From Caulobacteraceae bacterium (GTDB taxonomy: Bacteria > Pseudomonadota > Alphaproteobacteria > Caulobacterales > Caulobacteraceae): a stretch of DNA of 64,000 nucleotides. The stretch covers positions 1 to 64,000 of the forward strand of contig CANJME010000012.1 of the NCBI GenBank assembly GCA_947475875.1, written 5' to 3'. A model generated the notes under the pieces. It saw only the letters and a program-made list of their open reading frames with translations. It was not told the DNA's origin and ran no database searches. Made by a program: the position numbers and the translations under genes. The first letter of the stretch is position 1. Every line of letters starts with the position of its first letter. Shown piece by piece: positions 56,133 to 63,779 of the stretch.

Positions 56133-57599
56133 TCAGCCCCGTCCGGTGACGTCCGCGAGAGCGGCGACGACCTGGGTCACGTCGTAGGGCTTGCGGATGA
56201 TCGGGGCGTCGAAGCCCTGGGGCGCCATGCCATTGTCGCCGTATCCGGTGGCGAAAACGAACGGGATTTTCAGGCGCACCAGCGCGTGGGCAACCGGTTC
56301 GACCGAGCGGCCGTTGAGATCAACGTCCAGCACCGCGGCCTCGATATCGGGGCCGACCAGCGCCATGGCTTCCTCGACGCTGCCCGCCTGGCCGGCAATT
56401 GATGCTCCGGCCTCGGAAAGACCGTTTTCCAGCTCCAGCGCAAGAAGCATCGAATCCTCGACAATCAGCACCTTCAGGCCGGAAAGGCCTTTGGACAGCA
56501 TCGTACGCGCTTGGCGGTTAGCTTCGCTCGGCGCCGGGGCCGGGACGGGGCCGGCGTCGGCTTCAACGGCTGGCGGAGCGGTCTCAACCAGCGCCGCCGC
56601 ATCGGAGGACAATTTCGCCCAAACGCCCACCGGCCGGAATTCCAGCCGCACCTCGCCGCCCAGTTCGCGGCCGGTGACGTTCTGCAGGAGGACGGTGCCA
56701 AAGCCTTCACGAGCCGGCGACGCCACAGCTGGACCGCCGCTTTCCACCCATTCCAGGTCAAACCCGCCTTCAGCGTTGCGGCTCCAGCGCACATCCACCC
56801 GGCCCGCGCCGGTCGACAAGGCGCCGAACTTCAGGGCGTTGGTGGCGAGCTCGTGCAAAGCCAGAGAGAGTGCGTTGGTGGCCTTGGGGGTCAGAGCCAT
56901 GTCGGGGCCATCCCACCGGGTCTGGCTGGGCGAAAGACCCCCCAGCTCGGCGTTGACGATGTGGCGCACTTCCGCGCCCCGCCAGCGGGTGGCGGTAAGC
57001 AGAGTGTGGGCGGAGGCCATGGCCTTCAGTCGTCCGGAGAGGGTTTTCAGAAACCCGTCGAGCGAAGGCGCCCGGCGGGCCGATTGCAGGGCCATCGACT
57101 GCACCGAGGCCAGCACGTTCTTCACCCGGTGATCGAGTTCGGCGACCAACATCTCGCGCCGCGCGTCCGCGGCCTTTCGATTGGTGATGTCCTGCAAAAC
57201 CCCGAGGACCCGCGTCACCTTGCCCGTCTCGTCGCGCACCGGCGAACCGGCGCTGAGGATCCATATCATCTGGCCGTTATCAACCCGAAAGCTGCGGTGC
57301 TCGATCTTGTAGGGCTCGCCAGTCCTGGCCGCCTCGAGGATCGTGCGGCGCACCAGATCGACGTCGTCCGGATGGGTGAAGCTGACCAGGCTCTCGCCTT
57401 TTCCCGCGCCCATCATGCCGGCGGGTGCGCCGAGAATGGCGGCGGCTCGCTCGCTGAGATAGAGCTGATCCTTCTCCAGATCCCAGAAACTCGCGCCCAT
57501 GTCGGCGGCGCGCATGGCAAGTTCCAGCCAGGCGTCAGCAGGCCGTATGGCCGGCGGCGGAGCGGGCGGCGCGGGGCGGATGGGTTTAAAAAGGCTCAT
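56133..57599 (-). CDS. PAS-HWE histidine kinase with C-terminal receiver
   Basis: Soluble 488-residue kinase. A PAS/PAC domain (about 25-140) is followed by an HWE-type dimerisation region with phosphoacceptor His157 in 'ELDHRVKNVLASVQSMA'. The ATPase domain has 'LHELATNALKFGALS' and the WxE motif in 'LEWVESGGP'. The receiver near the C-terminus has Asp in 'AAVLDVDLNGRS' and Lys in 'PIIRKPYD'. HWE kinases commonly feed PhyR in the general stress response, and phyR lies 3 kb away. The start at 57597-57599 (MSLFKP) is chosen over a longer frame. It diverges from the first EcfG-type promoter. Confidence 0.9.
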   Translation of the reverse strand: MSLFKPIRPAPPAPPPAIRPADAWLELAMRAADMGASFWDLEKDQLYLSERAAAILGAPAGMMGAGKGESLVSFTHPDDVDLVRRTILEAARTGEPYKIEHRSFRVDNGQMIWILSAGSPVRDETGKVTRVLGVLQDITNRKAADARREMLVAELDHRVKNVLASVQSMALQSARRAPSLDGFLKTLSGRLKAMASAHTLLTATRWRGAEVRHIVNAELGGLSPSQTRWDGPDMALTPKATNALSLALHELATNALKFGALSTGAGRVDVRWSRNAEGGFDLEWVESGGPAVASPAREGFGTVLLQNVTGRELGGEVRLEFRPVGVWAKLSSDAAALVETAPPAVEADAGPVPAPAPSEANRQARTMLSKGLSGLKVLIVEDSMLLALELENGLSEAGASIAGQAGSVEEAMALVGPDIEAAVLDVDLNGRSVEPVAHALVRLKIPFVFATGYGDNGMAPQGFDAPIIRKPYDVTQVVAALADVTGRG

Positions 57600-57657: not shown

Positions 57658-57682
57658 GGAACCACGGCTGCGATTGTCCGTT
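57658..57682 (+). promoter_or_regulatory. EcfG-type stress promoter 1
   Basis: GGAAC (57658-57662), 16 bases, CGTT (57679-57682): exact match to the alphaproteobacterial EcfG consensus. It is 42 bases upstream of the DUF883-like gene. Confidence 0.8.
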
Positions 57683-57723
57683 TCCGCTCGGCGTAACCAC
57701 CCCTCTTTTCGCCGGAGATTGTC

Positions 57724-58053
57724 ATGACCACTCAAACCGCGTCCGCCGCGACCGTCAGAGCCCGCAAGATCGACAGGGTCGCCAATGGCCTGGCCAAACA
57801 GGCTGATCGCAAGATCAGCAACCTGGCGGACCGGGCGGAATCGGCCGCCAAACGCGCTGAGGTCGTGCTGCATGATGGGGTCGAAGCCCTGCGCTCGCAC
57901 ACCCAGGCCTACGCCGACGCGGCGGCCCAGAAGTTCGACTCGGCCAAGACCGTCGCCCGTGACAAGGTTCGCGAGCGTCCGCTGACCGGCCTTCTGGCCG
58001 CGGCCGGCGTCGGCCTTCTGCTGGGCATGCTGATCGGCAGCCGTCGCCGCTGA
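57724..58053 (+). CDS. DUF883/ElaB-like membrane-anchored helical protein
   Basis: A 109-residue protein with a long amphipathic, Ala/Lys-rich helical part (residues about 10-80: ADRAESAAKRAEVVLHDG) and a C-terminal glycine-rich membrane anchor ending in 'GLLLGMLIGSRRR'. This is the layout of DUF883/ElaB/YqjD proteins, which in E. coli are stress-induced and associate with ribosomes at the membrane. GGAG precedes the ATG. It is coupled to the next gene by TGATG and lies behind an EcfG-type promoter, so it is a likely stress-response output. Confidence 0.75.
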   Translation: MTTQTASAATVRARKIDRVANGLAKQADRKISNLADRAESAAKRAEVVLHDGVEALRSHTQAYADAAAQKFDSAKTVARDKVRERPLTGLLAAAGVGLLLGMLIGSRRR

Positions 58054-58433
58054 TGCTGAACAAGGCGCTCGCTGGTCTGATCGGAGCTGTGGCCCTGGCC
58101 ACCGGCGTCGCCATTGCGGTGGTCGCCCTTGCTTTCGCGCTCTATTTCGCCCTGGAGCCCTCGCTCGGCCGAGCGGGGGCGGCGGCCATTGTCGCCCTGG
58201 CGTTCATCGTCGTTCTGCTGCTCTTCGCCATCCTGATGGCTATGCGCGGCCAGGCCCGGCGCCGCGAAGAAGAGGATCACGGCCTCATTGAAAGACTGCT
58301 CGGCATTGCCCGCGAAAAGCCCCTGCTGGCTGTGGGCGCGGCGATCGCCGCTGGCATACTGGCGGTCCGCAATCCGGCCCTCGTCGCCACCATCCTGACC
58401 GCCTTCGTGCAACAGCCCAAGGACAAGCGCTAG
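58053..58433 (+). CDS. Phage-holin-like (DUF1469-type) small membrane protein
   Basis: A 126-residue protein with two or three hydrophobic helices ('GVAIAVVALAFALYFALEP', 'AAAIVALAFIVVLLLFAIL', and a shorter one near 'LLAVGAAIAAGILAV') and a basic stretch between them (RGQARRREEED). This resembles the 'phage holin family' (DUF1469/YqjE) membrane proteins, which travel with DUF883-like genes as in E. coli yqjD-yqjE. Despite the name, no phage context exists. Start overlaps the upstream stop by one base. Confidence 0.7.
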   Translation: MLNKALAGLIGAVALATGVAIAVVALAFALYFALEPSLGRAGAAAIVALAFIVVLLLFAILMAMRGQARRREEEDHGLIERLLGIAREKPLLAVGAAIAAGILAVRNPALVATILTAFVQQPKDKR

Positions 58434-58434
58434 A

Positions 58435-58478
58435 GCGCGTTCCGAAATGTGGGAACCGGTTTTCGGAATAAACGCGCG
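58435..58478. repeat. Intergenic palindromic element
   Basis: GCGCGTTCCGAAA (58435-58447) faces TTTTCGGAATAAACGCGC (58460-58477), an imperfect inverted pair around TGTGGGAACCGG. The sequence is of a kind that recurs in alphaproteobacterial intergenic regions. It begins immediately after the stop codon at 58431-58433. It contains GGAAC but no CGTT at the right distance. Confidence 0.6.
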
Positions 58479-58534
58479 ACAAAATAAACGTCCATAGCGG
58501 CGATCTGATTCCGTCAAATCACCGCTCCAGGTTC

Positions 58535-58559
58535 GGAACGTGGCGAATGGCCCCGCGTT
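58535..58559 (+). promoter_or_regulatory. EcfG-type stress promoter 2
   Basis: GGAAC (58535-58539), 16 bases, CGTT (58556-58559). It is 31 bases upstream of the first DUF1328 gene. Confidence 0.8.
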
Positions 58560-58589
58560 CTCCTTGAGATCAAACAAGGAGAAAAGATC

Positions 58590-58760
58590 ATGCTCAGGTG
58601 GGCGCTCATATTTCTGGTCATCGCGCTTTTGGCAGGCCTGTTCGGTTTCGGCGGCATCGCCGGATCGGCAGTGGGAATCGCCAAGCTTCTGTTCCTGGTG
58701 TTCATCGTGCTGTTCGTGATTTCCGGTATAATGCACCTGGCTCGCGGCAGGAGCCTCTAG
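58590..58760 (+). CDS. DUF1328 (YtjA) small membrane protein, copy 1
   Basis: A 56-residue protein almost entirely made of two membrane helices: '[19 protein letters not shown]' and '[17 protein letters not shown]', with the family's FGFGGIAG turn. DUF1328 proteins have no known activity. AAGGAG lies nine bases before the ATG. An EcfG-type promoter is upstream and an intrinsic terminator downstream, so it forms a single-gene stress unit. A second, CTG-started family member is at 59784-59957. Confidence 0.88.
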
Positions 58761-58769
58761 GCTAAAGAA

Positions 58770-58798
58770 AAGGCCGCCTCCGGACTGGAGGCGGCCTT
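58770..58798. terminator. Bidirectional intrinsic terminator
   Basis: Perfect 12-bp stem AAGGCCGCCTCC (58770-58781) with GGAGGCGGCCTT (58787-58798), 5-base loop GGACT, and A/T on both sides. It separates the convergent DUF1328 and 121-residue genes and can serve both. Confidence 0.75.
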
Positions 58799-58825
58799 TA
58801 TCCTGGCCGGCGCTGAGCAGCGCGC

Positions 58826-59191
58826 CTAATTTTCCTTGCCGCCGCGCAGCACCGATTTGGTCTTGTCCTGAATCGCCGCGCCGGCGTTGCGGGCGGCGTC
58901 CTGGGTGCGAGTGATCGCCTGATCCATGACTGGGGCCGTAGTGTCGGCGGCCTGGGCCAGCTTCATGTCGGCCACCGCGCCGCCTTCACCGAAAGAGCCC
59001 GTCATGGCCGCCAGCGTGATCATGGAAGCCCCGGTTGCGGCCAGCACCAGAAGGCCCGCCATGACGAAGGGGTGGTGCTTGCGCGCGGCCCGCTCGTCCT
59101 TGCGTCCGCGTTCATAGGCCTCGCGGAGCGGGGGACTGAGCTTTTCAAAGTCACCCTCGGCGGGAGACGTCCGTTTTATCCAAAACGCCAT
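58826..59191 (-). CDS. Single-helix membrane protein of unknown family, stress-linked
   Basis: I do not recognise this 121-residue protein. It has a charged cytoplasmic N-terminus ('LREAYERGRKDERAARKHHP'), one membrane helix ('FVMAGLLVLAATGASMITLAAM') and an Ala-rich helical tail ('ITRTQDAARNAGAAIQDKTK'). The tail resembles the amphipathic helices of DUF883-like and CsbD-like stress proteins. A perfect EcfG-type promoter precedes it, so induction under general stress is the main clue to its role. Confidence 0.75.
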   Translation of the reverse strand: MAFWIKRTSPAEGDFEKLSPPLREAYERGRKDERAARKHHPFVMAGLLVLAATGASMITLAAMTGSFGEGGAVADMKLAQAADTTAPVMDQAITRTQDAARNAGAAIQDKTKSVLRGGKEN

Positions 59192-59229
59192 GACACAACT
59201 CCTTTGAAGCGCTGGAATCCTCTAGATGA

Positions 59230-59254
59230 AACGGTCCGACGTCGCGGCGGTTCC
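59230..59254 (-). promoter_or_regulatory. EcfG-type stress promoter 3
   Basis: On the minus strand GGAAC (59254-59250), 16 bases, CGTT (59233-59230). It is 38 bases upstream of the 121-residue gene. Confidence 0.8.
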
Positions 59255-59263
59255 GGCAAAGAT

Positions 59264-59294
59264 GAGGCGGCCCCGCTTTTGACAGGGCCGCCTC
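59264..59294. other. Hairpin between two divergent stress promoters
   Basis: Perfect 10-bp stem GAGGCGGCCC (59264-59273) with GGGCCGCCTC (59285-59294), 11-base loop CGCTTTTGACA. It lies upstream of both promoters. The rest of 59255-59458 holds no gene I can support. Confidence 0.5.
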
Positions 59295-59458
59295 TCGAGT
59301 TTGCATCATCGAGAATGGGTACGGAGACGGCTGGTTGACTATTGCCAACCAAAGTCGGGGGGCGTCGCCGCCTCCGTATGCATGAAACATTCAGCCCGAA
59401 GATTGGTTCCCGGGGGCCTCCAAAAAACTCTTCGGGCGGTCCGGCAAGCCGATGTCGC

Positions 59459-59483
59459 GGAACGGCGGCCACTGGGTGGCGTT
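59459..59483 (+). promoter_or_regulatory. EcfG-type stress promoter 4
   Basis: GGAAC (59459-59463), 16 bases, CGTT (59480-59483), 50 bases upstream of the 82-residue gene. Confidence 0.8.
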
Positions 59484-59532
59484 ACCTGCACAAGACCGCG
59501 CAGATCGCGCCGACTGTTTTCGGAGACTTCTC

Positions 59533-59781
59533 ATGGCCAGGGCAACCGTTACCACAAACGAAGAACGGCCCGTCCGCATGCTGGCGACGAAAGCGCGCGG
59601 AGGATTTCTTGATCGCGATATCCTGGCCGTGCTGATCGTTTCGACCGCGCTGGCGATGATCGTGCTGTTCGCGGCCCTGGCCATTCAGTCGAGCGCCAAC
59701 CACCTTGAGCGCCAAGGTCCGCACACCCGGCTGGTTGAACACTCTTCGGGTGAATCTACGGCTATACCCCCCGCGCCCTGA
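59533..59781 (+). CDS. Small single-helix membrane protein, stress-linked
   Basis: An 82-residue protein without a family I recognise: a polar, basic N-terminus, one membrane helix ('ILAVLIVSTALAMIVLFAALAI') and a hydrophilic tail with several His residues. The ATG at 59533 has GGAGA nine bases upstream. Its promoter matches the EcfG consensus. It converges with the second DUF1328 gene, two bases separating the stops. Confidence 0.7.
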   Translation: MARATVTTNEERPVRMLATKARGGFLDRDILAVLIVSTALAMIVLFAALAIQSSANHLERQGPHTRLVEHSSGESTAIPPAP

Positions 59782-59783
59782 GG

Positions 59784-59957
59784 TCAGATCACCGACTGGC
59801 CCTTGAGCGCCCGCACCGCGAAGCTGACGATCAGCAAGGCCAGGAACACCAGGAAAAGGAGCTTTGCGATCATGGCGGATACTCCCGCCAGCGCGATAAA
59901 CCCGAAGTAGCCGGCCAAGACGGCCAGGATAGCGAAAACCAGGGTCCAACCGAGCAG
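59784..59957 (-). CDS. DUF1328 small membrane protein, copy 2, probable CTG start
   Basis: A 57-residue protein with the DUF1328 layout: 'LGWTLVFAILAVLAGYFGF' and '[16 protein letters not shown]', parallel to copy 1. No ATG, GTG or TTG can give the first helix: an in-frame TGA lies five codons before CTG at 59957-59955. That CTG falls exactly where family members have Met (M-L-G-W) and has AAAGGA seven bases upstream. I therefore infer a CTG start. The first downstream ATG would delete half the protein. A near-consensus EcfG motif is upstream. Confidence 0.75.
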   Translation of the reverse strand: MLGWTLVFAILAVLAGYFGFIALAGVSAMIAKLLFLVFLALLIVSFAVRALKGQSVI

Positions 59958-59992
59958 CCTCGTGTCCTTTCAAAACTCTCTCTTGAAGGACC

Positions 59993-60017
59993 AAAGCGCG
60001 CCCGAAGGGTGCGTTCC
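59993..60017 (-). promoter_or_regulatory. Weak EcfG-type motif for DUF1328 copy 2
   Basis: On the minus strand GGAAC (60017-60013), 16 bases, CTTT (59996-59993): one mismatch in the -10 element. It is 35 bases upstream of the CTG start, the same distance range as the perfect sites nearby. Confidence 0.45.
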
Positions 60018-60036
60018 GCCGGTTGTCAGTATGCCC

Positions 60037-60834
60037 TCAGGCCGCCTCCTTGCGCTTGGCCGGGTGGAAGAACAGCGCCTGACCGATCGCCGCCTTCACT
60101 GTTTCCGGCTGGAAGGGCTTGGTGATCAGAAAGGTCGGCTCGGGCCGCTCGCCGGTCAAAAGCCGCTCGGGGAAGGCGGTGATGAAGATCACCGGCACAT
60201 CGAACTGCCCGAGGATGTCGCGCACGGCGTCGATGCCCGAAGACCCGTCCGCCAGCTGGATATCGGCCAGAACCAGGCCCGGCCGCTTGCGCGCCACCGC
60301 CTCGACCGCCTCGCCGCGGGTGGCGGCGATGTCAGTGACCGTGTGACCCAGTTCGCGCACCAAGGCCTCGATGTCGGCGGCGATGACCGGCTCATCTTCG
60401 ATGATAAGCACATCGGTAGCCAGTTCCGCGTCGATTTCTTGCTGGGCCTGATTGATCAGGCGGTCGACCTCGTCGAAGTCCGTTTCCAGGATCTGGGCGG
60501 CCTCGGCGGGCGTAAAGCCCTCCAGCGCCGTCAACAGGAAGGCCTGGCGGGATCGGGGCGCAATGCGCATCAGCCGCTGCCCGGGATCGTTGGCCGCCGA
60601 AACGCCATCGTTGTAGGTTTCCAGCTGCGCGCCGGTGGAAAGCCAGATGGCGTGAAACACGTGATAGAGCGCCACGCGGGGGCTCATGCCGGCGTCCAGG
60701 GTCCGATCGCCAGTGGCCAGGGCCTCCAAGGCTACGCGGACGTACTGGTCGCCGCTCTTCTGGTCGCCCGTCAGGGCACGGGCGTAGCGGCGGACATAAG
60801 GCAAGTGCGGCGCCAAGCGTGCTAACAGGCTCAT
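60037..60834 (-). CDS. phyR: General stress response regulator PhyR
   Basis: Anti-anti-sigma factor: when phosphorylated, its sigma-like domain binds NepR and frees EcfG. The 265-residue protein has the N-terminal sigma-like domain (about 1-130: 'APHLPYVRRYARALTGDQ', 'RQAFLLTALEGFTPAEAAQI') and a C-terminal receiver with the acidic pair in 'LIIEDEPVIAAD', the phosphorylated Asp191 ('LVLADIQLADGS') and Lys in 'LITKPFQPE'. The ATG at 60834 has GGGAGGA upstream and is preferred to a frame 14 codons longer. It diverges from nepR-ecfG, the classic arrangement, and has its own EcfG-type promoter. Confidence 0.97.
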   Translation of the reverse strand: MSLLARLAPHLPYVRRYARALTGDQKSGDQYVRVALEALATGDRTLDAGMSPRVALYHVFHAIWLSTGAQLETYNDGVSAANDPGQRLMRIAPRSRQAFLLTALEGFTPAEAAQILETDFDEVDRLINQAQQEIDAELATDVLIIEDEPVIAADIEALVRELGHTVTDIAATRGEAVEAVARKRPGLVLADIQLADGSSGIDAVRDILGQFDVPVIFITAFPERLLTGERPEPTFLITKPFQPETVKAAIGQALFFHPAKRKEAA

Positions 60835-60915
60835 CAATTCCTCCCTTTGCTCGCCGGCGTCCGGCGCGCGTGCCACAGAGCGCTCCCATTATCCAGGGCG
60901 CCGTCTGGATTGATC

Positions 60916-60940
60916 AACGCAACGATCCGGGAGCGGTTCC
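60916..60940 (-). promoter_or_regulatory. EcfG-type stress promoter 5 (phyR)
   Basis: On the minus strand GGAAC (60940-60936), 16 bases, CGTT (60919-60916), 81 bases upstream of phyR. It implies positive feedback. Confidence 0.8.
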
Positions 60941-60970
60941 CGAAGCTTGACAGTTTTTTTCATTCCGGGG

Positions 60971-60996
60971 GGAACCTAGGCCCGTCCCCATGCATT
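60971..60996 (+). promoter_or_regulatory. Weak EcfG-type motif for nepR-ecfG
   Basis: GGAAC (60971-60975), 17 bases, CATT (60993-60996): one mismatch and a spacer one base longer than the local set. It is 56 bases before nepR. EcfG autoregulation is usual in relatives. Confidence 0.5.
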
Positions 60997-61052: not shown

Positions 61053-61277
61053 ATGCGCAGCGCCAACGAAATGATTGACGTCCGACCTGTGAACGATCGG
61101 CCCGCAAAACCTACCCGCTCTTCCGGCAGGTCCGGCATGGACGAGGCGCGTCTGCGTCAGCAGGCGATCGGTGTTAAGCTGCGTCAGATGTTCGACGAAG
61201 TCGTCTCCGAGCCGGTTCCCGACGAGTTTCTGGAAATCCTGCGCCGGGCGGACGCCCGCCGTTCGGACGGTGCATGA
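61053..61277 (+). CDS. nepR: Anti-sigma factor NepR
   Basis: Holds EcfG inactive until PhyR-P captures it. The 74-residue protein has the family core of two helices, 'IGVKLRQMFDEVVSEPVPDE' and 'FLEILRRAD'. The N-terminal tail is polar and variable, as expected. The ATG at 61053 has GAGGGAG ten bases upstream; one at 61071 is possible. Its TGA overlaps the ecfG ATG (ATGA), which would keep the two proteins in balance. Confidence 0.93.
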   Translation: MRSANEMIDVRPVNDRPAKPTRSSGRSGMDEARLRQQAIGVKLRQMFDEVVSEPVPDEFLEILRRADARRSDGA

Positions 61278-61906
61278 TGGGCGCTGCTCCCCCCTCCACG
61301 GACGAAAGGGCGCCCGTGGAAAACGCCCGCTCCAGCCCCAAGATGGAAGAACAGTTCAAGACCGATCTGGTCAAGCTGATCCCTCACCTGCGCGCCTTCG
61401 CCCGCACTTTGACCGGTAACGCGGCTGCCGCGGACGACCTTGCCCAGGACGCCATGCTCAAGGCATGGGACGCCCGCGCCAGCTATCAGATGGGCACCAA
61501 CATGAAGGCCTGGACCTTCATGATCCTGCGCAACCAGTTTTATTCGGACAAGCGCCGGTCCTGGCGCTCAACCCAGCTCGACCAGGAAGCGGCCGAACGC
61601 ACGCTTCTGGCCATTGACGATCCATCCAGCCCCCTCGCTCTCGACGAGCTGCGCCTTTCCATCGCCAAGCTGCCGCCTGAACAGCGCGAAGCCCTGATTC
61701 TGGTCGGCGCCGGCGGCTTTGCCTACGAAGAAGCCGCCGAGATCTGCAATTGCGCGGTCGGCACGGTGAAGAGCCGGGTCAGCCGCGCGCGGCGGGCGCT
61801 GCAGGATATCCTGAACACGGGCGGGTACGATCGGGACGGGCGGCCTGCGGGCGAGGCGATGCACAGCATCCTCGGCGATGCGGAGCGCCTAAGCGCCGCC
61901 CGGTGA
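61274..61906 (+). CDS. ecfG: ECF sigma factor EcfG (SigT-type)
   Basis: Directs RNA polymerase to general stress promoters. The 210-residue protein has sigma region 2 ('PHLRAFARTLTGNAAAADDL', 'NMKAWTFMILRNQFYSDKRR') and region 4 ('LPPEQREALILVGAGGFAYE', 'EAAEICNCAVGTVKSRVSRA'). The 'GGFAYEEAAEIC' stretch is typical of EcfG proteins. Two adjacent ATGs at 61274 and 61277 are both possible starts. It is flanked by nepR (4-base overlap) and the kinase gene (GTGA overlap). The GGAAC-CGTT motifs around it are its expected targets. Confidence 0.96.
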   Translation: MMGAAPPSTDERAPVENARSSPKMEEQFKTDLVKLIPHLRAFARTLTGNAAAADDLAQDAMLKAWDARASYQMGTNMKAWTFMILRNQFYSDKRRSWRSTQLDQEAAERTLLAIDDPSSPLALDELRLSIAKLPPEQREALILVGAGGFAYEEAAEICNCAVGTVKSRVSRARRALQDILNTGGYDRDGRPAGEAMHSILGDAERLSAAR

Positions 61907-63609
61907 AGTCCGCCCGGGAGTCAAAGGCGCCTCGCAGTATACGATCGCGCCTGCTGATCGCCCTGGCGATCGCGCTCGCGCCGGTGCTTGTGCTGGGCGT
62001 CTCGCAGACGATCAGCGTCTATTCCCGGGATCTGGAGAGCCGGCGGATCCGCCTGGTCGATGCGGCCGAGCGCAGCGCCTCCATGGCCCGCACCCGCGTC
62101 GAAGGCGGCCAGGAGCTGTTGCAGACGCTGAACTCGCAAACCGTCGGTTTAAGCTGCGGCCAGAATCTGCGCGCCATCGCCGATCATCTGCGCGGCTATG
62201 AGAACCTCATCCGCTTTGACGCCATTGCCAGGGTTTCCTGCGCCTCGGGCAGCGTTTCCGAAAACCTCGAGCGGCGCAACGCTGACTGGTTTGCCCGGCT
62301 TGCCGGCGGCGATCAGCTGGTTGTCACCCAGGCGCCGTCAGATCTTTCCGGCGCGCCCGCTCTGCTGGCCGCCGTCCGGTCCGAACAGGACGGCGCCTTC
62401 GACGGGGCGATGGTGGCGATAATCAGCATCGATGCGCTGCGACCCGACCGCCGCGACCGCTCGCTCTATCAGGGTTCGGAGGTGGCGCTGGCCGACGGTG
62501 ACGGCCATTTCGTCAGTAGCACCCGCCCCACGGCGTTCCCCGCCACCTTCGCCGGGGCCATCGGCAGGATTCCCGAAGGCGGCGCCGTGTTCGAGGCGCG
62601 CGACCGCACCGGCGGCAAGCGACTTCTGGCCGCAGCGCCGCTGGTTTCGGATGACCTGTTTGTGGTGATTTCCGCGCCGGTCCAGTCCTTGGGCGAATGG
62701 AGCAGGGTCAATCTGCTGGCGACCGTCGCCCCCCCGATACTGGCCTTCCTGCTGGCAGTCGTCGCCGTCTGGTACGTGGCCGACCGTGTGGTGGTGCGCT
62801 GGCTGCAGTATATTCAGCGCATCGCCGAGATCTACGCCAAAGGGCGATTCACGGTGCGGGCCGCCAAGGCCGTCGAAGCCCCGCTCGAGATCGCCGAGCT
62901 GGCCACGACGCTGGAGGCCATGGCCGACGCCATCATAGAGCGTGACGCGCGCCTGCAGGAGTCGCTGGCCGAGAAAGACAGCCTGATGCGGGAAATTCAC
63001 CACCGGGTTAAAAACAACCTGCAGGTCATGTCGTCCATGGTCAGCATGCAGCAGCGGGCGGTCAGCGATCCGGTAATGCGCGAGACGCTGGACGACATCC
63101 GTCAGCGGATCGCCGCCCTGGCGCTGATCTACCGCACCCTCTACCAGGGCCCGAACCTGCGGCAGGTGGACCTGAAGACCTTCCTTGAGGATCTGACGAC
63201 CCAGATGGTCATGGGCGAGAGCCTCCGGGGTCATGTGGTCGACACCTCATTGACCGCCGATCACCTGTCGGTTGATCCGGACCGGCTGGCGCCGCTGGCG
63301 CTGTTTACCGTCGAGGCGATCACCAACGCCCACAAGCACGCTTTCCACGGACGCGGCGGGGTGCTGCGCATCACCTTCCAGGCCCAGGGCGAGAAGGCCA
63401 GGCTGGAGATCGCCGATTCCGGAGGCGGCGACGCGGAAAACGCGATCGAGAGGCTGAAAAGAGGTGTCGGCGGCGTTCTGATGAACGCTTTCGCCCGGCA
63501 ACTGGGCGGCAGCGTAACCTTTTCCGTCAACGACGAAGGCGGGATCACGGCCCTGCTGACCTTTCCTCTCCCTGATCCGGTCGAGACCGGGAACCCGGGA
63601 GCCGTCTGA
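61903..63609 (+). CDS. Membrane HisKA_2-type sensor histidine kinase (PhyK-like)
   Basis: A 568-residue kinase with two membrane helices (about 17-38 and 271-293) around a periplasmic sensor domain of about 230 residues containing three cysteines. A HAMP-like stretch ('RIAEIYAKGRFTVRA') leads to the phosphoacceptor His in 'REIHHRVKNNLQVMSSMVSM' (His366 or His367) and an ATPase domain ('FTVEAITNAHKHAFHGRGG'). This type phosphorylates PhyR in Caulobacter (PhyK). It starts at a GTG overlapping the ecfG stop (GTGA), so it belongs to nepR-ecfG-kinase. Confidence 0.9.
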   Translation: MKSARESKAPRSIRSRLLIALAIALAPVLVLGVSQTISVYSRDLESRRIRLVDAAERSASMARTRVEGGQELLQTLNSQTVGLSCGQNLRAIADHLRGYENLIRFDAIARVSCASGSVSENLERRNADWFARLAGGDQLVVTQAPSDLSGAPALLAAVRSEQDGAFDGAMVAIISIDALRPDRRDRSLYQGSEVALADGDGHFVSSTRPTAFPATFAGAIGRIPEGGAVFEARDRTGGKRLLAAAPLVSDDLFVVISAPVQSLGEWSRVNLLATVAPPILAFLLAVVAVWYVADRVVVRWLQYIQRIAEIYAKGRFTVRAAKAVEAPLEIAELATTLEAMADAIIERDARLQESLAEKDSLMREIHHRVKNNLQVMSSMVSMQQRAVSDPVMRETLDDIRQRIAALALIYRTLYQGPNLRQVDLKTFLEDLTTQMVMGESLRGHVVDTSLTADHLSVDPDRLAPLALFTVEAITNAHKHAFHGRGGVLRITFQAQGEKARLEIADSGGGDAENAIERLKRGVGGVLMNAFARQLGGSVTFSVNDEGGITALLTFPLPDPVETGNPGAV

Positions 63610-63644: not shown

Positions 63645-63779
63645 ATGCGTAAGTTTCTGGTTTTCGCGGCCGTCATGGCCGGTCTTGTCGTCACCGCCTG
63701 CAATACCGTCGAAGGCGTCGGCAAGGACGTGAAGGTCGCCGGTGCGGTCGTTGAAGACGCCGCCCAGGACGCCAAGTAG
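63645..63779 (+). CDS. Entericidin-like small lipoprotein
   Basis: A 44-residue lipoprotein: signal 'FLVFAAVMAGLVVTAC' with the lipobox Cys19, then 'NTVEGVGKDVKVAGAVVEDA', matching the entericidin A/B family (EcnAB). In enterobacteria these small envelope toxins and antidotes respond to stationary phase; in Alphaproteobacteria the role is unclear. GGGAG lies eight bases before the ATG. It follows the kinase by 35 bases and may be an envelope-stress output of the locus. I see no perfect EcfG promoter in front. Confidence 0.88.
   Translation: MRKFLVFAAVMAGLVVTACNTVEGVGKDVKVAGAVVEDAAQDAK

Follow-up and report, generated by a model that had tools for sequence, protein, structure and literature searches.

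A Caulobacteraceae locus of the general stress response with probable EcfG promoters before regulator genes, small-protein genes and a GsrN-like small RNA

Results

Gene content of the locus

The 64,000-nucleotide stretch of DNA analyzed here (hereafter the window; positions 1 to 64,000 of contig CANJME010000012.1, Caulobacteraceae assembly GCA_947475875.1) carries, between positions 57658 and 63779, a locus of the general stress response (GSR), in which the regulator genes phyR and nepR, a probable ecfG and a PhyK-type kinase gene are accompanied by genes for small proteins and by the gene of a GsrN-like small RNA (sRNA). Eight sites of one motif, very probably promoters of the GSR sigma factor EcfG, stand before these transcription units (Table 1). 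PhyR combines a sigma-like domain with a receiver (Pfam PF22029, PF22233 and PF00072), and the extracytoplasmic function (ECF) sigma factor is called EcfG here because of its position and because its gene overlaps nepR.

Table 1. Genes, sRNA and predicted promoters of the locus, in window coordinates
Feature	Coordinates	Strand	Evidence
Putative EcfG promoter, DUF883 gene with 126-residue gene behind it	57658..57682	+	GGAAC-N16-CGTT, exact
DUF883-like protein, 109 residues	57724..58053	+	PF19029 (DUF883_C), 28.9 bits (cut-off 27)
126-residue protein with hydrophobic stretches	58053..58433	+	Open reading frame; no Pfam family
Putative EcfG promoter, DUF1328 copy a	58535..58559	+	GGAAC-N16-CGTT, exact
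DUF1328 protein copy a, 56 residues	58590..58760	+	PF07043, 54.5 bits
121-residue protein, family unassigned	58826..59191	-	No Pfam family
Putative EcfG promoter, 121-residue gene	59230..59254	-	GGAAC-N16-CGTT, exact
GsrN-like sRNA	59265..59379	-	RF01529 match at 59265-59375; predicted 5' end near 59379, predicted length about 115 nucleotides
Putative EcfG promoter, sRNA	59386..59410	-	GGAAC-N16-TGTT, one mismatch
Putative EcfG promoter, 82-residue gene	59459..59483	+	GGAAC-N16-CGTT, exact
82-residue protein, family unassigned	59533..59781	+	No Pfam or NCBIfam family
DUF1328 protein copy b	59784..59957	-	PF07043, 30.8 bits (shorter version); NF010228, 51.6 bits (under cut-off 71)
Putative near-consensus EcfG promoter, DUF1328 copy b	59993..60017	-	GGAAC-N16-CTTT, one mismatch; exact CGTT in G030 orthologue
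phyR, anti-anti-sigma response regulator, 265 residues	60037..60834	-	NF006623, 376.5 bits (cut-off 240); PF22029, PF22233, PF00072
Putative EcfG promoter, phyR	60916..60940	-	GGAAC-N16-CGTT, exact
Putative near-consensus EcfG promoter, nepR-ecfG	60971..60996	+	GGAAC-N17-CATT, one mismatch
nepR, anti-sigma factor	61053..61277	+	PF18557, 57.5 bits; NF051865, 107 bits (cut-off 100)
ecfG/sigT-type ECF sigma factor	61274..61906	+	Sigma-70 regions 2 and 4; TIGR02937 over cut-off
PhyK-type sensor histidine kinase	61903..63609	+	NF051872 (HisKinPhyk), 670.3 bits (under cut-off 750); HisKA_2
Entericidin-like lipoprotein	63645..63779	+	PF08085, 23.6 bits (cut-off 23.3)

Conserved promoter sites

A preliminary description of the window had placed five exact GGAAC-N16-CGTT motifs in intergenic DNA, each correctly oriented 31-81 bases before a gene. 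All five positions and orientations are borne out, and the distances hold to within one base, with 41, 30, 38, 49 and 81 nucleotides measured to the start codons in the order of the exact sites along the window. The list of five is nevertheless incomplete, because one-mismatch sites precede the sRNA or genes whose relatives carry EcfG sites: homology backs eight promoters, which span 57658 to 60996; five of them are exact, and three carry a single change in the -10 element. The changed ends (TGTT, CTTT and CATT) are all listed before EcfG-dependent genes of Sphingomonas melonis (PMC6599016), and a flexible -10 element of EcfG sites is stated in the report on Sphingopyxis (PMC7083833).

The decisive support for accepting the promoters as real is their conservation before orthologous genes. 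For this comparison we used loci of up to 15 kb around 119 sRNA copies from Caulobacteraceae relatives, or 120 loci with the window; five of the 125 genomes with gsrN (G003, G013, G030, G049 and G134) fall outside this set, and upstream counts omit relatives in which the locus ends before the upstream region does, so that the denominator differs by gene. The relatives' loci contain 584 sites with a spacer of N16 and 206 with N17, every other spacer from 12 to 21 giving only 4-14, and with the window included 795 exact N16/17 sites compare with 21 of the reversed motif. Exact N16/17 sites stand upstream of phyR in 104 of 108 relatives and of nepR in 102 of 108 (all 108 when one mismatch is allowed), of DUF883 genes in 66/71 and of the 121-residue gene in 35/35, with homologues at 36 loci; for DUF1328 the counts are 50/51 with copy a as query and 46/49 with copy b, two queries that share matches. 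An exact site directly before ecfG (0/109), phyK (0/107), the 126-residue gene (0/54) or the HWE kinase gene left of the cluster (0/88) is found in none of the relatives, as expected for downstream operon genes and for a kinase outside the cluster. The window's entericidin gene is preceded by a weakened site, GGAAC-N16-GCTT, whose counterpart is exact in 92 of 102 relatives. Conserved across the family before orthologous genes, the sites uphold the earlier interpretation that EcfG promoters surround the regulator genes, and we regard them as very probably such promoters.

Local clustering tells the same way, and genome-wide abundance does not. With spacers of 15-18, the window holds six motif matches against a shuffle mean of 1.95, a number reached in 1 of 100 shuffles. 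The genome-wide scan proposed in the preliminary description places five of the 27 exact GGAAC-N16-CGTT sites of the 2.85-Mb genome in this cluster, but reveals no excess of the motif, the reversed control occurring 47 times. At the background rate of the other 22 genome sites, five in 3.28 kb have a Poisson probability of about 9e-11, or about 7e-8 once multiplied by the number of 3.28-kb windows, in agreement with the earlier remark that such a cluster is very unlikely by chance. Since the nine-base motif lacks genome-wide enrichment, many of the exact copies elsewhere are probably fortuitous. Five of the 22, however, stand 30-77 nucleotides ahead of plausible starts, and the phrase "compact regulon" would therefore be too narrow if it meant a regulon confined to this locus. 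Judged by eye, the products encoded behind these five sites would be two lipoproteins (L018 and L020), a response regulator (L005) and two further proteins, one of 51 residues (L027) and one of 126 residues that contains a hydrophobic stretch (L001). The exact site in L005 (1501-1525) precedes what is presumably a single-domain-like response regulator, possibly a GSR modulator.

Two other genomes of the same genus were sampled. In G030, which has an RF01529 match, a block of DUF1328 copy a, the 121-residue gene, the sRNA, the 82-residue gene and DUF1328 copy b lies on a different contig from phyR; its four protein promoters are exact and its sRNA site reads GGAAC-N17-GGTT. Because block and phyR are on separate contigs, the block stays together apart from phyR, provided that the G030 bin is clean. 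The window's DUF1328 copy b has CTG (59955-59957, minus strand) where the G030 orthologue (L178) has ATG, and its promoter ends in CTTT instead of CGTT; this copy may be decaying or using a rare start codon. The other genome, G015, is 99% complete and gave no RF01529 match even in a laxer search and no phyR match at 1e-40, which may mean that this genome has lost the stress switch.

A GsrN-like sRNA within the cluster

In mid-cluster lies an sRNA gene with its own near-consensus EcfG site, overlooked in the preliminary description. It matches RF01529 (CC3552 sRNA) with 62.7 bits (gathering score 50); no other Rfam RNA in the window exceeds its gathering score. Its fold reaches -61.4 kcal/mol (z -6.3). 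For covariation, 58 of 115 distinct copies were picked and two short matches (L157 and L159) left out; among the resulting 57 sequences (the window's and 56 others), one or more members differ on both sides yet still pair at 14 of 18 consensus pairs. The six-cytosine 5' loop, ACGCCCCCCGAC, is unpaired both in the window fold and in the consensus.

These features are those of GsrN, the sigma-T-activated stress RNA of Caulobacter whose proven target is katG: the GsrN report describes an exposed 5' loop with six cytosines in tandem, gives BLASTn matches in Caulobacteraceae only and places the gene usually near ecfG-nepR-phyR, C. crescentus being the exception (PMC5869019). The window loop ACGCCCCCCGAC is complementary to the partner sites given there, namely GUCGGGG in katG, GGGGGGCG in nepR and GUCGGGGGGCGUC. 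RF01529 is found in 125 of 199 sampled Caulobacteraceae genomes, with scores of up to 117.3 bits among which the window's is low. In 109 of the 125 its position is downstream of phyR by at most 4.8 kb (106 on the same strand), whereas five have it more than 80 kb from phyR on the same contig and nine on another contig; G004 and G049 have no phyR match at 1e-40 in this count. From these data we infer that the RF01529 sRNA is very probably GsrN.

The sRNA promoter is conserved as well. In the 60 nucleotides upstream of 119 copies (window included, L173 dropped because its sRNA lies at a contig end), the pattern GGAAC-N15-18-CGTT is exact in 64, has one mismatch in 54 and two in one; a site with at most one mismatch thus precedes 118 of 119 copies, at a near-constant offset, compared with 1.5% of random 60-mers. 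The window's GGAAC-N16-TGTT sits at the family's fixed offset. With an sRNA among the outputs, and with phyR, a regulator, in the earlier list itself, the proposal that all outputs are small membrane proteins does not hold; envelope remodelling is a possible, putative output of those that are.

Catalase absence and candidate GsrN targets

A profile search of the window's genome gave no match to PF00141 (katG) or to the catalase family PF00199. Among the 199 genomes, 94 have both gsrN and katG, 31 (the window's included) gsrN alone, 27 katG alone and 47 neither; the gsrN-negative counts rest on strict filters, and a laxer search of 20 such genomes led to three diverged copies. If GsrN works in the katG-free genomes, it must have other uses there, because katG is absent, and a section heading of PMC5869019 reads "GsrN is a general regulator of stress adaptation".

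The pattern of loop complement, Shine-Dalgarno sequence and ATG occurs at 18 places in the window's genome and at none with the reversed loop, a weak control; the 16 candidates examined all lie inside open frames of at least 133 codons and include no convincing leader. Among the leaders of the locus, those of DUF1328, the 121-residue gene and entericidin were rejected as GsrN targets, their loop complements being at about the shuffled level or below. The small excesses for entericidin in Caulobacter (5/33, expected 2.0) and for DUF883 in Phenylobacterium (4/19, expected 0.9) were taken as noise.

Neighboring features

The 126-residue gene is probably in an operon with the DUF883 gene. Between it and the promoter of DUF1328 copy a, a palindromic stretch of 46 nucleotides (58433-58478, plus strand) partially matches RF02599 (Brucella sRNA CI408; 37 bits, gathering score 398) and is perhaps a dispersed repeat. 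Left of the cluster, a PAS-HWE histidine kinase (56133-57599, minus strand) has a weak C-terminal receiver match and its best NCBIfam similarity to LOV histidine kinases (166.7 bits, far below the cut-off of 450); it may be an additional kinase feeding into the stress response.

Discussion

We are confident that the window holds a core GSR locus, in which EcfG would drive the promoters of phyR, nepR-ecfG, GsrN and the small-protein genes, and GsrN would pair with G-rich mRNA sites. The partner switch is established for the PhyR-NepR-EcfG family. Applied to the locus, the PhyK-type kinase would phosphorylate PhyR, PhyR would sequester NepR and thereby free EcfG, and free EcfG would transcribe from GGAAC-N16/17-CGTT promoters, the EcfG dependence of each single promoter being a prediction. 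Transcription from the phyR and nepR-ecfG promoters would amount to autoregulation; the other promoters would drive GsrN, the DUF883 and 126-residue proteins, the two DUF1328 copies and the 121- and 82-residue proteins. GsrN would then act post-transcriptionally, its exposed C-rich loop probably pairing with G-rich sites in mRNAs.

Several observations weigh against this interpretation. The sigma factor scores above cut-off with no NCBIfam model finer than TIGR02937, and hence with no EcfG-specific one, and the PhyK-type kinase matches NF051872 with 670.3 bits over 535 residues, under the curated cut-off of 750. The -10 element deviates from CGTT at three of the eight sites and also before the entericidin gene, and genome-wide the exact motif is rarer than its reversed control. 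For the 82-residue gene, just 5 relatives out of 10 have an exact site, and sites also turn up in the control region of phyR (exact in 17 of 108 relatives, with one mismatch in 77 of 108), which we ascribe to neighboring promoters. The genome lacks katG, the proven target of GsrN, and PMC5869019 nowhere uses the name CC3552, so that the equation of RF01529 with GsrN is ours.

The question of what GsrN regulates admits a further proposal, which we hold to be doubtful: that its conserved function is adjustment of the stress switch itself and not control of katG. A perfect loop complement of at least 7 nucleotides occurs in the nepR leader in 29/34 Caulobacter and 24/29 Phenylobacterium loci (about 4.6 and 2.6 in shuffled leaders) and in the phyR leader in 28/31 Brevundimonas loci (shuffled, about 1.6), leader lengths being approximate because nepR start codons in relatives are uncertain. 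Against the reversed loop the counts are 58 versus 5 of 107 for nepR and 43 versus 7 of 106 for phyR, and the 45-nucleotide stretches ahead of long open reading frames carry a loop complement in 149 of 2416 cases. Retention of gsrN in 31 of 125 gsrN genomes without katG, the window's among them, also counts for such feedback.

The control consisted of phyR loci from 17 Caulobacteraceae genomes that lack a strong RF01529 match. A second search of 20 such genomes, with laxer filters, led to three with diverged gsrN copies, each behind an exact EcfG site; the loop is intact in G028 and G173 and changed in G197. Under the same definition, a complement lies in the nepR or phyR leader at 92/107 gsrN loci versus 8/15 genomes without intact gsrN (Fisher p 0.006), weak support given that shared ancestry is uncorrected and the second set consists mostly of other genera. 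Five of the Brevundimonas genomes have no intact loop; GTCGGGG is retained at phyR in three of them (G126, G185 and G197), and the other two (G106 and G179) have CATCGGGG there. The gsrN-like RNA of G197 (L302), about 500 bp downstream of phyR, has the loop CCCCCGCCC, scores 23.7 bits, below the gathering score, and is possibly a retargeted GsrN. Three results speak against feedback: the window's own nepR and phyR leaders contain no loop complement and give duplex energies no better than shuffles; only 1 of 30 Brevundimonas nepR leaders carries a complement; and in C. crescentus nepR and sigT mRNA are reported to co-purify with GsrN with no effect on GSR transcription (PMC5869019).

Less probable still is a state of decay in this lineage, with the sRNA and the drifted promoters persisting as relics because GsrN has little to do without katG. 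The lack of both PF00141 and PF00199 matches in the genome, the -10 elements TGTT, CATT, CTTT and GCTT and the CTG of DUF1328 copy b against ATG in G030 would all fit such decay. However, the sRNA keeps its loop intact and folds well (z -6.3), 30 other gsrN genomes also lack katG, a single mismatch in the EcfG site is shared by 54 of 119 gsrN copies, the TGTT, CTTT and CATT ends are found at EcfG-dependent genes of Sphingomonas melonis (PMC6599016), and flexibility of the -10 element is stated for Sphingopyxis (PMC7083833). We give slightly less credence to the idea of genuine promoters served by an ECF sigma factor other than the one encoded here, an EcfG paralogue of the same preference: such paralogues sharing one promoter motif are published, for example in Sphingopyxis (PMC7083833), but in most relatives phyR, nepR and ecfG themselves have these sites beside them. 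Chance occurrence of the motifs in GC-rich DNA between genes, which the 27 exact against 47 reversed sites in the genome would allow, we reject as extremely improbable in view of the clustering, the conservation before orthologues with 795 against 21 sites in 120 loci, and the sharp N16/N17 preference.

With the locus read as a core GSR locus under EcfG, what began as a motif observation becomes a family-wide footprint, that of a stress-regulator locus in which many transcription units, an sRNA among them, have the same promoter. In addition, katG-free genomes such as the window's, with no PF00141 or PF00199 match at all, are places where the remaining targets of GsrN can be sought without a dominant katG effect.

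Comparison with known systems

In its well-kept GGAAC -35 element and flexible -10 element, the locus resembles the EcfG regulons of Sphingomonas melonis and Sphingopyxis granuli (PMC6599016, PMC7083833), the Sphingopyxis report giving N16-CGTT before nepR (PMC7083833). Both belong to other families, and the likeness is drawn from their promoters.

Closer at hand is the PhyR-NepR-EcfG (SigT) locus of Caulobacter, where, in C. crescentus, phyR is divergent, NepR is co-transcribed with sigT and a kinase gene is neighboring (PMC3073932). The window shares the divergence of phyR from nepR, the probable ecfG and the PhyK-type kinase gene, the EcfG sites before phyR and nepR and the small stress genes around them; it differs in that its locus also contains the sRNA and another six units with EcfG sites or close variants of them, and in nepR, sRNA and DUF1328 copy b sites that deviate from CGTT.

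The window RNA agrees with GsrN as described in PMC5869019 in its full-length Rfam match, six-C loop, near-consensus EcfG site and position downstream of phyR. Unlike the GsrN of C. crescentus, it belongs to a genome without katG, its -10 element is TGTT and its 62.7 bits are low compared with relatives; pairing with katG describes what the C. crescentus RNA does and is no part of the definition by sequence. In a literature search whose coverage of subscription journals was small, PMC5869019 was the one paper to mention GsrN more than twice. That gsrN lies near the phyR locus and carries an EcfG site is already published there (PMC5869019), and the locus described here is a new example of this arrangement.

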